Source: Marchantia polymorpha subsp. ruderalis (lineage: Eukaryota > Streptophyta > Marchantiopsida > Marchantiales > Marchantiaceae). Taken from it: a DNA stretch of 64,000 bases. Both the position numbers and the translations under genes were made by a program. The DNA lies in assembly GCA_037833965.1 (NCBI GenBank), contig AP031357.1, positions 19,612,001 through 19,676,000 on the forward strand, in the 5' to 3' direction. Below are positions 15,840-63,538 of the stretch, one piece after another (position 1 is the stretch's first letter; each line of letters begins with the position of its first letter). Under the pieces are notes generated by a model. The model had not been told where the DNA came from, ran no database searches, and saw only the letters and a program-made list of their open reading frames with translations.

Positions 15840-16495
15840 CTACCGATGGAGGGGAACATGGCTAGGAACATCATTCTCCTCGATCATAATTTGAACCTTA
15901 TAACCTTCTGGTGCCTCCCATGGTTTCCATTCTGGATCAACGATCAATGATCAATCAGAAATGACATACCAACTACCAGCAGATCCACAGTGGAAGGTCG
16001 TACTCGTATGAATTCCATGACACGTCAGCATTCGGGACCCAAAACAAGTTGCAAACAATCCGGGAGAACAAGTGCAAGCTTCAATCTACAAAATGCATTG
16101 ATAATTTGTGCACACACACAGTAATTTTGATCACGATGGTAGCTGCATGCGCCATTGACTCGAGAAACGATAAGAAACACACCAGCCATTTTGGGGATCA
16201 ATGTCAGCTCATCCTTGGCCTGCTGAATCAACTGCTCCACTTGTCCGTTTCCAACACGCTTCTCGATCTCCTTCCAGTCTTCCTCCTCATTACAGATTGC
16301 CAACCGATGCTGTGTAATTTCCTCCACTGTTTTTCGGTACTGCGCTGACTCAGGAATCGGCTGCACTGCGTCCAGCGTTTTCCGATACAGACCAATTAAC
16401 ACCTCTCTCGCATTCGGTACCACGGGCAGGCCCACAATTCCCGTCGTTTCCTTGACTCCGCCCAACAGCGGGCCTGCGATGCGTCGGAGAAACAT
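15840..16495 (-). CDS. NDUFA5: NADH dehydrogenase 1 alpha subcomplex subunit 5 (complex I B13)
   Basis: Accessory subunit of mitochondrial respiratory complex I (peripheral arm). Two exons: 16183-16495 and 15840-15931, with intron 15932-16182 (donor CTG|GTGTGT, acceptor CCAG|AATGG). The joined frame is 134 aa. It opens MFLRRIAGPLLGGVKETTG and contains VVPNAREVLIGLYRKTLDA, CNEEEDWKEIEKRVGNGQ and DELTLIPKMAEWKPWEAPEG. These match the plant B13 pattern (TTGIVGL-VVPNAR, EEEDW-IEKR-G-GQVE, DELTLI-KM-EW-PW) recalled from the family. The downstream exon ends NDVPSHVPLHR. The C-terminus is shorter than the about 169 residues I recall for Arabidopsis, closer to animal B13. Without splicing the frame would run into non-homologous intron sequence. 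Confidence 0.93.
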
Positions 16496-16750
16496 GGCTA
16501 CTCGCCTCCCCTGTCACGGATCCCGCGATCGATCGAAAGTGTGTAATCCGTGTAATTCGCTCGAGGCTGTCGTCTGCACCTCTTCCCTCTATTTACACTG
16601 ACAGACTCCACCACCGATCCGCTCTTCGTTCCCCCCTGCTGCCAACTTTGCCTTCCCTGGCAAACCCTAGCAGAGCTCCTGCTCCGGTCTCGACATTCAT
16701 TCATTCATTCCTTCCTTCCTTCCTTCCTTCCTTCGATCGTTCCGTTCGAT
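16496..16750 (-). promoter_or_regulatory. Probable 5' leader/promoter of NDUFA5 with (CATT)n and (CCTT)n
   Basis: Pyrimidine-rich stretch upstream of the NDUFA5 start. It holds adjacent (CATT)n at about 16694-16709 and (CCTT)n at about 16710-16734, read as purine-rich (AAGG)n on the gene strand. A regulatory role is inferred from position only. Confidence 0.35.
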
Positions 16751-43452: not shown

Positions 43453-43687
43453 TCAAACAACTTCACCACAGTCAGCAATGACGACGTTCTTCGCTGGCCT
43501 GTCCATGCGATCAGTCGGCTGGTTCTCAATGTTGGAGACGATGTCCAGGCCCTCGATGACCTGACCGAAAACAACGTGACGTCCATCGAGCCATTGAGTC
43601 TTCACCGTGCAGATGAAAAACTGGCTTCCGTTCGTGTTGGGACCGGCATTCGCCATACTCAAGATTCCTGGTCCGGTGTGGGTCAAT

Positions 43688-43722
<35 letters not shown>

Positions 43723-44211
43723 ACTCTTGCCGCCGGTGCCATTGCCCGCGGTGAAATCACCACCCTGGATCATGAAGTCCTTGATAACACGGTGGAAAGC
43801 TGAACCCTTGAAGCCAAAACCCTTCTCGCCCGTGCACAGAGCGCGGAAGTTCTCGGCTGTCTTGGGCACCACGTCGCCGAACAATCCCAAAATGATCTTT
43901 CCCGCAGGCTTTCCGCCAATTTCGATGTCGAAGTACACCTTGTTCGTCACCTTCGCCTGGTACTCCTTCTCCGAGGCCATAGCCCGCACGCCGGTCCTCC
44001 TCCAGCTCACAGCGCCCGAGGGCGCAACGGAAGCAGCCCCGGCCAATCTCTGCACACCTGCGCCGAGGAAGGTCGACGAGGAGCGAGCAATCGCGCCGGC
44101 GACGGGCGCCAGAGGTCTGATGGACGACGAGCTCCGCGCGATGCAGCGCGAGGCCGTCACCTTGGAGGCGATGCTGCCGATGCTCATGCTGGAGGCGGCC
44201 ATGGTGTTCAT
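43453..44211 (-). CDS. CYP20-3: Plastid peptidyl-prolyl cis-trans isomerase (cyclophilin, CYP20-3-like)
   Basis: Single uninterrupted 252-codon frame. Residues 1 to about 79 form a Ser/Ala/Arg-rich, acid-poor leader typical of a plastid transit peptide, ending near [10 protein letters not shown]. The mature part begins [19 protein letters not shown], as in stromal CYP20-3/ROC4. The cyclophilin fold is complete: [10 protein letters not shown], the active-site stretch [20 protein letters not shown] (catalytic Arg141), [18 protein letters not shown], and [15 protein letters not shown] with the ligand-binding Trp207 and His212. It would catalyse proline isomerisation in the stroma; in Arabidopsis this enzyme also binds the cysteine synthase complex. 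Cys126, Cys201 and Cys248 are present, but one redox-pair cysteine of the Arabidopsis protein is missing in the tail. No introns, unlike the Arabidopsis gene as I recall it. Confidence 0.95.
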
Positions 44212-44640
44212 GCTGGGCCCGAATGCGGCTTCAGTCGATCAATCGACGAATGGATGCAACGCACCGATCCACTCTCTGCAATGCAACAGAACCAAATGGG
44301 CTTCGGATTCGTCCCGCGAGCGAGTTTTGAGTCTCGGAGAGCAGATCAGAGCAGAGCAGTCGAGCAGCGAGAGCGCGAGGTGCCAATCCGGATGATCGAA
44401 GGATCGATCGACGGAGCGATCGTCGCCTCTGGTTGCCTCGAGATGTGCTCCGGCAGAGCAGCCACATGGAGCCGTTGCATGCGTCGATGCTCCTCGGTCC
44501 TCGCACTCCTCCCTTGCGATGCCCACAACGGATGCTCCGGCCGCTGCTGCCCCCGCTCTACCTCGTACCGTCCTGTCCTGTCCTGTCCTGTCCTACTGCG
44601 TTCGCCCTTCACGTCGTTCGCTCGCGCTGTCATTTTGTCT
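44212..44640 (-). promoter_or_regulatory. Probable 5' leader/promoter of cyclophilin
   Basis: GC-rich sequence upstream of the cyclophilin start, with agcagatcagagcagagcag at about 44340 and (CCTGT)n at about 44570-44594. Read-through frames on both strands here have no family features. Confidence 0.4.
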
Positions 44641-59195: not shown

Positions 59196-62150
59196 CTGCC
59201 CTACCCAGAACCCTTGATTTTGCTTTCTCGTACCTCAAACAATACAAGATACAAAGTACTTCATTAGAAGGTCACTGCAGGAAACTTTGGTTTGGGACAG
59301 GAGGCCTGGCTAGAACATTAAAAACACAGTTCGAAGGCTCTACTGTGTTCCAAGCCTCCAGCACAAGAGAATCGCTTCTAAAAATTCAAATCGAAATTGT
59401 ATTGAAAATATAAGGAAATTTTGTAACAACAAAATTTGATGTTTTTTTCTTAAAAAGAAGAAGAGGGGTGCATTAGGAAGTAATGTTCTGACAGCAGGTG
59501 GTCCACGATGTGGTTACGTTATGTCCGTCGAAGTATGTTTGTCTTTCATTCATCAGAGGAGAAAGAAGCTCTCACGACGGAAATTTGTCCTGGTCTTTTA
59601 TTTCTTCTGAAATCTCCTGTAGACCTCGGGGTTTTAAATCTTGGCCGTGAATGAAATCCATATCTTCATTTTTCTAAATTTCCCATAACAGCAAAATTGG
59701 AATATCCGCTTGCTCTGTTCAAGGCGAAAATGCTCGGTGGACTACCAACAGCTTTAATTTTGATTGAATCAGAATCACCCCAGAAGCAGCTAGTCATGTG
59801 CCGTCGTCGTTTTTGCCTCTCCCACAAAACAACGCAGGTCCAGAACTTCCTCTACTGCCGGAAGGTCAACCGACGATTGGGATGCATTGGAGATTTCCCA
59901 CGGGACTGAGATTTCCAGGTCTGCTCTCATAGCTTTGCTTGCAGGACATGTGTGTAATCTTTCCCAGTGTCTTTTCGGTGCACCTTTGGCGCACGTTATG
60001 CATACATGACGGCGGTAATAAACCAATCGACTTCGTGGTTCTCAAGCGGCTATACTCAGAAGTGTGCGTCCAATATCCGTGTATATCCTGCTACTCTGTT
60101 CCGGACATCCGCTCGAATCATCGCTCACCATTTATGTGGATGTTTCACAAAACCGTCTGACGCAATTCACAATAGATGAGATATTGCAAAGAAACGTAAA
60201 ACTTGACTCTGCACGCGTAAAGTGATTCAGACAGCATGTCACCCGTCTCGCCTCATGAGGGTGTGCACATCTTGAGAGGGCATATCTGAGACTGACAACC
60301 TAATAAGTTTCTAGTTCAGACGGGAGACACTGCAACTCGAATTCCTGTCAGGAGTTTCGTCGAGTTGACAGCTCGAGATGTCGCTGGAATTTAAGCTGTC
60401 AAATAAAAGTGGAAATCCAATGCCACAAGCTCTACTCCCGAACCTGTTCGTCATCGCTCGGTCGAACAATGTTAACAGTGATACAGGAACATAAATGACT
60501 GGCAAGCACTTCTGCATGTTCAGATCTGATTTGACGAACTCGCTGTCAATGGGAGTGTAGATCTGGTGAAATCAGCACGTCCAGCGACCGGCTCGAGAGT
60601 TGGGCGAGAATCAAGAACAAGACGGACAATCGGCATGGAAGTGGACAACACCTCCTCTATCGCTGGCCAAACGCGGAGTCAAGGCCTGTCTGTCATGACG
60701 TCTTGACTCACTCCCTCCCTTCGCGGTGATCGTGCATAACGTATTGAAAAATATTCACAGACGAGTGCACACTTCCTTCCAGCAGCAGCCTTGCCATTTA
60801 CTTTCGTTAAAGCGTTTGCCCCACCCACCTGAAGCAGAAGGCAATTCATTGAAGATGTTGACCATCGGTGATGCAATCAAGAGCCTTCGGCAGCTCGCAG
60901 CACTCGTAAATCAGCTCACTTGAGTTCGGATCTCTGACCCCGTGAGTAATTTAATCCTCGTGTCTGCTCGAGGACTTAAAGTATGAGAAACTTAGCATGA
61001 GGTGAACTGTAATGGGTGGATGCATGTGTTGGCTTTTATTGCAGGAGCAGGCTTTAACAGAAGTACTGTCAGCTTCACTGATCTGTCCATTGTGAACTCC
61101 AGCATTAGTAGAGGGGATAGCAGATCTCACTCTGCTGTCCCGAAGGACCGCAGGAGTTTTGTGTCAACTAGCTCCTGTTTGCACGAAGTGGTGAAGGAGC
61201 GCCAATGACTTCCAGAAGCGAGTCGTGCTCGCCCGAGAATCGAGCTTAAGTTTCTGGTCATTTTGCAGCGACTGTCTCGTCTCCATTCTTGAAGGCAGAA
61301 TTTGCAGCTACTCTTCAGGTGCCAGCGAAATTCCAAAAGAAGTCAAAAACCTGGGGAACGGCAGATCGTTCCATGCAGATGCACAGAACCTTTCTGCGTG
61401 TTGACCCGTCATCAGTGGGTAATGCATAAGAGTCCAAATCCAGGGCAGATTCGCTAAGACTGATCTCTTTGTACAACAGTTCATTTCTCATAGCTTTTCG
61501 ATCGTCAACATCGACTTTGTTGAATGTTGTTGGACTTTGGTGTGATTTCTTGGTGCCCAGGTGCTTAATCTGCTAATGCTCATAAAGGATACCACAGTAT
61601 CATGTATTATCATCTGATAGTCTCTTTTTATAGCATGGCTATTTATAACATCATAACTTGCAAGTAATCTGCAATGAAATGATCTTAAGTCACCATGTTT
61701 CATTAAACAGATATCATGTTATTTGTTTTGGTTCCAGATTATTTTTTTGTATGATATGCAAAAAATCGTACCGTGCCGATTACCAGAAGTCTTTGATTGA
61801 AACACCACTAGTGGTTCAACTGTTTTATTATTTGGATATTACTTCTATTGTGTTTGTAAATTTATCATCTTAATATCATGAATATTTTCGATATTTCATT
61901 TTGTCATTTAAGTTTAGATTCTTTGTTAATTATATGTGAGGTAAAGTTTATTATTGATTGATTGAATTTCAAATATATCATTTTGGGTTAATCGACACTC
62001 TAAGAACCTTTCTTTGTTTATCAATATTTGAATGTACAAAGATGTATACTTGGAATGTGTGTTTGGACGTAAATAATCAGGATTCGCCCTCTATGTTTTC
62101 ATATATCTATGGGATATGGCTGTTACATTCTCTAGATGTAACAACCCTTT
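59196..62150. other. Intergenic, unresolved short frames
   Basis: Frames of 60-78 codons at 59.7-60.2 kb on both strands and at 60.7-61.3 kb are partly protein-like but carry no family motif. I cannot separate a small gene or non-coding transcript from chance. From 61.6 kb it becomes AT-rich. Confidence 0.45.
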
Positions 62151-63078
62151 GAGTAAATTACTTGATGGGACCCTATAGTAAAACAATTTATATTTTGATA
62201 CCCATCAACTTTTGTTTTATCCGAAGGGACACCAACGAATGGCCACGTCATCCATATTTATCTATCAATCCAACGTTGGCAATGAGTATGACCAAGTAGC
62301 TATGTGTTTAGGAGGAATTTTGAAATTTTGCGATTGATATCGTGACAATGAGTATGACCAAGTAGCAGCGTGCATAGGAGGAATTGGAGCATGCAGCATC
62401 TAGAGTGGAGGCTGCAGATCAAAAAAACTTTTATTTTAGTGAAACCTTATGGAAGTTTAAAAGAAACATCAAATTTTCACGCACAAATCAGATCTATAAA
62501 AAATAAACGGAACCGAAAGACTTATTATCCACTTTTTTTTATCTTCCAAATTCTGAATTGTGATGTTTATGTAGGCGGTCCTAGATCGAGCAGAGTAGCT
62601 GATGGCCAAGCTCGCGAACTTCTCCTCAGTGCTGGCAATCAGTCCCAAGGCCATGACCTTGTTCTTGGCCTTCAACCCTTTGCACAGACTCAACTTCCTT
62701 GCTTCGACCTTGCCGATGTGCTCTTCGCTACTTGCGAGATCTCAGTAGCTCCCGCGCTGGTAACCAACGAGCATGAAGCTTTGGCTGCAATGTCTGTCAT
62801 TTTTCACACTCTATTACGCAACAAATCTAAACCATTTGTGTCATTCTTTTTGAATGATGTCACTCTCGACATAAAATCTAGCTCATCAAACCTACAACAC
62901 ATACCAATGATGAGAAATCAATACTCATTGTTTCTTGTTTATACTCATTGTCAACATTGGATTGATAAAAAAACATGGGTGACGTGGTTTTCGTTGGAAT
63001 CTCATCGGATAAAACGAAACTTGATGAATCCTAGTAAATAGATTGTTTTATGATGGGCTCCCATCAAATACTTTACTC
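62151..63078. mobile_element. Mutator-like element with captured gene fragment (Pack-MULE type)
   Basis: The left end begins gagtaaattacttgatggga. The right end, reverse-complemented, begins gagtaaagtatttgatggga. The similarity continues for about 150 bp (shared aaaacaat, gttttatccga, ccaacgaa, ccacgtca, atcaatccaa, caatgagtat). Such long terminal inverted repeats typify Mutator-like elements. Flanks caacccttt and cagccaatt match at 6 of 9, a weak old target duplication. There is no transposase; the interior holds GC-richer, host-like sequence at about 62571-62741. A 36-bp direct repeat (aatgagtatgaccaagtagc) lies at 62281 and 62347. Confidence 0.72.
62571..62745 (-). pseudogene. Captured host coding fragment inside the MULE
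   Basis: On the minus strand this GC-richer stretch reads EEHIGKVEARKLSLCKGLKA followed by KNKVMALGLIASTEEKFASL. Codon use and charge pattern resemble the window's genuine exons and differ from the AT-rich element ends. It has no start codon or terminus of its own and is bounded by element sequence, as expected for transduplicated DNA. The parent gene is not recognised and is not elsewhere in this window. The plus-strand 223-codon frame across the same region (62370-63041) is probably fortuitous. Confidence 0.45.
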
Positions 63079-63538
63079 CAGCCAATTATACATTCACTTT
63101 TGATGTATACATCACTCTCAATAGATCTGGCCTTTCCTAGTATCATCAAGATTAATTTTGCTTAGAGCTTCATGGCTTGAGTGTGTAATTGAAGCATTTT
63201 GACAATCAACAGGGAGCTTATTTGAATGACAAAGCATAGGAACCAAAGATAATGAATATGCGTTTGTAATGATGGCTTGCAAGTGTATACTTAACATGTA
63301 GTGATCGTTGGTCATGACGAGATCTATTGTAAGACGCGGTTAGTATCTCAGTGAGACTAACTTTAGCATTAGAATTAAGATGCTGACCTTATACTCTTTA
63401 CATTTCAATTGGTTCTTGTTGTTCATTCAAGCCATACGTTTTAGGTTGAATGCATCACTTCACTCAGGATGTGTCCGTGAGCAGCTATTTAAATGTTACC
63501 ATCTCTTCAGAAAAGCATAATGTATGTAACTCACAACA
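63079..63538 (+). other. Probable 5' LTR of copia element (left limit unknown)
   Basis: Sequence directly before the primer-binding-site-like tggtatcata. It should contain a 5' LTR ending at about 63538. A TATA-like ctatttaaat lies near 63485. The left LTR border and target duplication cannot be fixed because the 3' LTR is outside the window. Confidence 0.4.

Follow-up and report, generated by a model that had tools for sequence, protein, structure and literature searches.

The element at positions 62151-63078 of the window, by which we mean the whole 64,000-nucleotide stretch of Marchantia polymorpha DNA analyzed here (C8:19612001-19676000), is read as a Pack-MULE, that is, a non-autonomous Mutator-like transposon bearing part of petM, a nuclear gene of the host, with a probability that we put at about 0.94. 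This reading, put forward in a first-pass annotation made from the letters alone, is upheld by the many copies of the element's ends, by an intact donor gene lacking the terminal repeats, and by a related transposase-bearing MULE, all found in the 241-Mb genome of nine contigs that was searched. The petM fragment lies in nine elements at different sites, eight of them sharing its right junction and seven its left, from which it follows that element and fragment have transposed as a unit.

Architecture of the element and its petM cargo

The element, located on contig C8, is 928 bp long and non-autonomous, and the features assigned to it and to its flanks are as follows.

62142-62150, no strand: putative left target-site duplication, caacccttt
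62151-62307, + strand: left terminal inverted repeat, starting GAGTAAATTACTTGATGGGA
62277-62385, + strand: subterminal direct repeat of two 43-nt copies (62277-62319 and 62343-62385; 86%), with AATGAGTAT in each
62358-63041, + strand: 227-codon stop-to-stop open frame, antisense through the petM fragment, in this copy only
62570-62851, - strand: captured petM fragment, comprising 5' leader, the start codon at 62798-62800, and codons of the transit peptide, the frame being broken
62923-63078, - strand: right terminal inverted repeat, ending TCCCATCAAATACTTTACTC
63079-63087, no strand: putative right target-site duplication, cagccaatt

The two terminal inverted repeats align over 157 columns at 77% identity with a score of 118 bits, as compared with a best of 37.4 bits among 300 first-order Markov shuffles, and the coordinates previously proposed for the element proved to be exact. 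Both arms start with GAGTAAA and have TTGATGGGA in common, and the terminus pattern, allowing up to three mismatches, matches the window at two places, 62151-62170 (+) and 63059-63078 (-), the mean for 100 shuffles being 0.02. The motif AATGAGTAT occurs seven times in the window (shuffle mean, 1.21), four times within the element at 62281 and 62347 (+) and at 62921 and 62941 (-), in agreement with the earlier observation of such subterminal repeats in both arms. The GC content in 50-bp bins is 0.52-0.56 mid-element and 0.22-0.46 in the rest of the element, and the GC-rich interior, formerly described as coding-like, is indeed coding-derived, as judged from the petM alignment. A Pfam search with the longest open frame of each strand of the 928 bp gave no match, and thus no transposase, and neither tRNA genes nor Rfam families at the gathering score were found in the window.

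The captured fragment shows 81.5% identity to intact petM over 287 columns. A search of the genome with the interior of the element returned other elements and a single repeat-free place, C2:7279695-7279979 (82%); the interior thus matches an intact host gene without terminal repeats, and not only transposon sequence. This donor gene (C2:7279748-7280092), the one intact petM locus found, encodes an uninterrupted protein of 115 amino acids that scores 26.0 bits against Pfam PF08041 (PetM; cut-off, 25.1) and matches the solved cytochrome b6f subunit 7 (best, 1.6e-14), and its 3.3-kb locus contains no element sequence or terminal repeats outside the captured fragment. The donor segment represented in the elements extends from about L011:1464, approximately 90 bp 5' of the start codon, to about L011:1781-1785, a length of approximately 320 bp. 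By the alignment of residue 3 of 6rqf_N with residue 80 of PetM, the mature PetM chain starts at about residue 78. At the nucleotide level, the window copy ceases to match at about residue 77; at the protein level, the longest match among the copies, that of C9, stops at residue 84. With the match ending so near the start of the mature chain, the cargo corresponds, within a few codons, to the leader and the transit peptide, and the coincidence of the capture boundary with the boundary between transit peptide and mature chain may be accidental. The segment 62571-62745 singled out in the first-pass annotation is of petM origin, but the fragment reaches farther than had been supposed; the minus-strand peptide read from it, EEHIGKVEARKLSLCKGLKA, lies inside the fragment but runs across a frame break and is not one continuous donor frame, KVEARKLSLCKGLKA being in the donor frame and EEHIG off-frame. 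The host fragment was correctly recognized, and its description as antisense holds only relative to the strand of the window.

Superfamily and a related transposase-bearing element

Target-site duplications were checked by eye in nine two-ended elements, a tenth (L037) being omitted because its left end is unfixed. Perfect duplications of 9 bp in the petM-bearing C7a (TCCTTGCCG) and of 10 bp in L031 and L048, relatives without a petM match, were accompanied by one of 8/9 in the petM-bearing C6a and by partial duplications in three of the nine elements (6/9 in the window copy, 6/8, and 7/10), and duplications were absent in the other two. The flanks of the window copy carry little weight alone, since six or more identical positions out of nine at the same spacing would arise by chance in about 1.5% of cases for one offset. 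Duplications of 9-10 bp are consistent with Mutator-like elements, for which a range of 7-12 bp is given in the cited part of PMC10741241, and we firmly assign the family to the Mutator-like superfamily.

A MULE of 8,325 bp with related ends was found at C4:26459915-26468239, having terminal inverted repeats of 92 bp at 95% identity, a duplication of 9/10 (GAGTAACACC/GAGTTACACC), and a transposase (row C4:26463842) that matches PF10551 (9.2e-15) and PF00872 (3.2e-8). Its terminal inverted repeat was unseen in the first 8-kb stretch and became visible once L048 pointed to the right end. L048 itself (contig C3, 1,407 bp) is an internal-deletion derivative of this MULE with 93-95% identity, and another segment, C4:3673590-3674180, is 96% identical to L048 and located 4.0 kb from a transposase match at C4:3678141, the equivalent distance in C4:26459915-26468239 being 3.2 kb. 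The ends of the C4 MULE show 74-82% identity to those of the window element over 49-82 columns. Thus, the C4 MULE and L048, with their 10-bp duplications, are related to the window element by their ends, whereas the C4 MULE encodes a PF10551 transposase and contains no petM match.

The search for a parent compared 142 termini, drawn from the searches with the two ends and from 100 of the 665 genome-wide terminus matches, with 137 of the 140 rows returned by a MULE-transposase search of the genome, three rows that adjoin others being left out. Three termini face a transposase match within 25 kb, as against about two estimated by chance, and among these only the C4 case was confirmed by matching ends. 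In 30 MULE loci with 1.5-kb flanks, no close terminus was detected, the best being one match with five mismatches. A transposase-bearing relative, of the kind to be sought according to the first-pass annotation, exists, but with ends only 74-82% identical it may not be the direct parent; no direct autonomous parent was identified among the termini compared, and a closer one may exist.

Dispersal and decay of the petM-bearing family

The 20-base terminus, searched genome-wide with up to two mismatches, gave 665 matches, as compared with 2 for the reversed control pattern, and searches with the left and right ends returned at least 31 and at least 29 genomic matches, respectively, the query itself being counted; further copies of the terminal repeats, on which the original reading depended, are thus plentiful. 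A search of the genome with the PetM protein yielded 13 rows, namely the intact gene and 12 rows inside nine elements, which are C2, C3, C5, C6a, C6b, C7a, C7b, the window copy on C8, and C9. A clear family end is present in eight of these, that of C3 being a weak 30-nt match only, and both ends are uninterrupted in five (the window copy, C5, C6a, C7a, and C9). In C6b (L004 and L034; C6:13390291-13397280), the petM half begins at C6:13390291, and the remainder lies with the other end at C6:13396945-13397280 in the same orientation; C6b is apparently one element, interrupted at its right capture junction by a later insertion of approximately 6.1 kb, and five of nine positions agree, by eye, between its outer flanks.

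Several members of the wider family have peculiarities of their own. The petM-bearing copy at C5:16146424-16147374 (L005) has an inverted repeat of approximately 191 columns at 83% and, beyond its inner right end, an extra exact terminus, in the manner of the multiple-TIR MULEs described in the cited part of PMC3310237. In the petM-bearing copy at C7:3205163-3206180 (L003), part of the transit-peptide fragment is present twice, in tandem. A second captured gene was sought in the interiors of three relatives, none of which indicated a single-copy donor: the 8 rows for the interior of L048, itself included, belong to its own MULE lineage, the 25 rows for that of L007, itself included, form a repeat family, and the 67 rows for that of L035 represent other elements and arrays. 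A 230-bp piece of L035 gives series of matches spaced approximately 23.5-23.8 kb apart at C9:12.65-12.99 Mb and C5:18.08-18.12 Mb, and also a cluster of matches at C7:2.59-3.05 Mb.

The right capture junction and the adjoining non-petM sequence are common to eight of the nine petM-bearing elements, C6b being interrupted there, and the left junction, which differs from the donor by a 12-bp insertion, is clear in seven, partial in C3, and missing in C7b. In the coding columns, identity is 0.71-0.84 between copies and donor and 0.64-0.80 among the copies; the donor is the nearest sequence for six copies, C2, C6a, and C6b being slightly nearer to C3. Seven columns have a base that is common to 75% or more of the copies but differs from the donor's, and six of these are third codon positions. 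The tree is star-like, with none of seven inner branches supported and a branch of 0.058 for the donor as compared with 0.11-0.41 for the copies (IQ-TREE flags the base composition of the donor as unlike that of the other sequences). A star tree with a short donor branch is expected from a slowly evolving gene and the neutrally decaying copies of one founder; repeated captures, which the star tree alone would also fit, are argued against by the shared junctions. So a single old capture, followed by amplification and star-like decay, is the history to which the sequences point, and the capture attributed earlier to the window element is real but not private to it, being common to nine. Stops or frame breaks occur within the targeting peptide in all nine copies, and differences from the donor, summed over the copies, are 0.162, 0.239, and 0.274 at codon positions 1, 2, and 3, respectively. 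We read the fragments as having no sign of protein constraint, position 2 being almost as free as position 3, though position 1 is lower.

We infer the mechanism of capture, the moving transposase, the timing, and the lack of present function as follows. A small MULE with these ends would have taken up a petM segment of approximately 320 bp, beginning some 90 bp ahead of the start codon and reaching about as far as the last transit-peptide codon. A MULE transposase acting in trans would then have moved the composite to nine or more sites, with target-site duplications of 9-10 bp arising on insertion. After movement had ceased, the copies would have decayed independently, leaving the window copy as a fossil without an intact petM frame and, most likely, without any present function. 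If substitutions accumulated at 7e-9 per site per year, an angiosperm-like rate, a divergence of 0.2 changes per site would correspond to an uncalibrated age near 30 million years.

The 227-codon antisense frame, although no shuffle in sets of 1000 and 2000 reached a length of 226 codons, is regarded as a curiosity noticed post hoc. Of 305 slices taken from the window, 16 attain that length, the longest open frames on the matching strand of the eight other copies comprise 72-104 codons, a stop at codon 34 of the frame is present in seven of the eight aligned copies, and a Pfam search of the frame gave no match.

The same observations bear on rival readings, among them two that would add a function to the Pack-MULE. 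That the start codon and nearly the whole transit peptide were spread as a module, with a copy or a lost relative giving plastid targeting to a neighboring gene and the 227-codon frame being a nascent chimeric gene, is improbable in view of the broken transit-peptide frame in all nine copies and of an antisense frame open in only one. An ongoing action on petM in trans, through antisense transcripts or small RNAs of the element, is also quite improbable, though exact donor stretches of at least 21 nt survive in two of the nine copies (27 nt in the window copy and 29 nt in C7a), so that effects at the RNA level may be conceivable from the sequence; promoters can reside in MULE terminal inverted repeats, as stated in the cited part of PMC3310237, and in maize, siRNAs from captured sequence silence donor genes, according to the cited part of PMC13317346. 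However, no exact 21-mer survives in seven of the nine copies, and the fragments have decayed without sign of protein constraint.

Far less credible is the view that petM gave rise to the fragments independently, as processed pseudogenes or segmental copies, in or beside which transposons landed by chance. The stops and frameshifts of the fragments would suit pseudogenes, but the 12 petM rows other than the donor are all confined to nine elements of a single family, most with identical junctions, and the presence of sequence preceding the start codon together with the loss of the 3' part of the gene is unlike a processed copy; the shared junctions have largely refuted this explanation. Equally hard to sustain is an assignment to another superfamily with terminal inverted repeats (hAT, CACTA, or PIF/Harbinger): the best alignment at C6_848 (L035) is an 8-bp duplication with 6/8 identity, as such an assignment might lead one to expect, but it is opposed by the perfect 9- or 10-bp duplications of three elements, the 8/9 and 9/10 duplications of two, the long terminal inverted repeats, and the presence of related ends around a PF10551 transposase.

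Comparison with known Pack-MULEs and other features of the window

The Pack-MULEs of rice and maize, reportedly the subject of Jiang et al. (2004, 2011), are said to be biased toward the 5' ends of genes. The element that we read as a Pack-MULE is worth comparing with them: it likewise has non-autonomous MULE ends around a host gene fragment with the intact parent elsewhere, but it differs in its non-flowering host and in carrying a single fragment of one gene, old and decayed. Pack-MULEs are well documented in rice, maize, Arabidopsis, and tomato (PMC3310237, PMC8903248, and PMC13317346), and those of rice and maize prefer GC-rich sequence (PMC3310237). In the PM-ZIBP family of tomato, as presented in the cited part of PMC3310237, one gene fragment was amplified to 14 copies, 13 with tandem terminal inverted repeats and 1 without. 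The petM family resembles PM-ZIBP in the amplification of one captured fragment and in the extra terminus outside the inner ends of the C5 copy, but the gene and the host are different, and C5 is the sole member of the nine in which such a terminus was noticed. MULEs as such have been annotated in Marchantia polymorpha (PMC5784723, cited part). Bryophyte, moss, and gymnosperm are absent from the main text, at least, of a 2026 review of gene capture (PMC13317346), and no earlier report of a Pack-MULE from a liverwort or moss was found among the papers listed in searches of the open-licence literature; the element is thus of a known type in an apparently little-studied lineage.

Pack-MULEs shape grass genes, and their role across land plants is little documented in the literature searched. 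The present liverwort case comprises one donor, probably one capture, and nine dispersed copies, and the captured piece is GC-rich and from a 5' end, as in grasses, though only one event is represented. The case suggests that MULEs as a superfamily have long had the habit of capturing genes, which would then be no peculiarity of grasses. It is also a warning for annotation, since the petM-like fragments identified in this genome belong to the cargo of transposons and are not genes.

Elsewhere in the window, an NDUFA5-like frame is located at 16025-16513 (-) (PF04716, 9.6e-27), and an open frame at 43453-44238 (-) has an N-terminal extension followed by a cyclophilin domain (PF00160, 7.1e-52). 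Beyond the element, the segment 63665-64000 (+) resembles by eye the start of a Copia-type gag (ATGGAACAAGCTCAATAC...).
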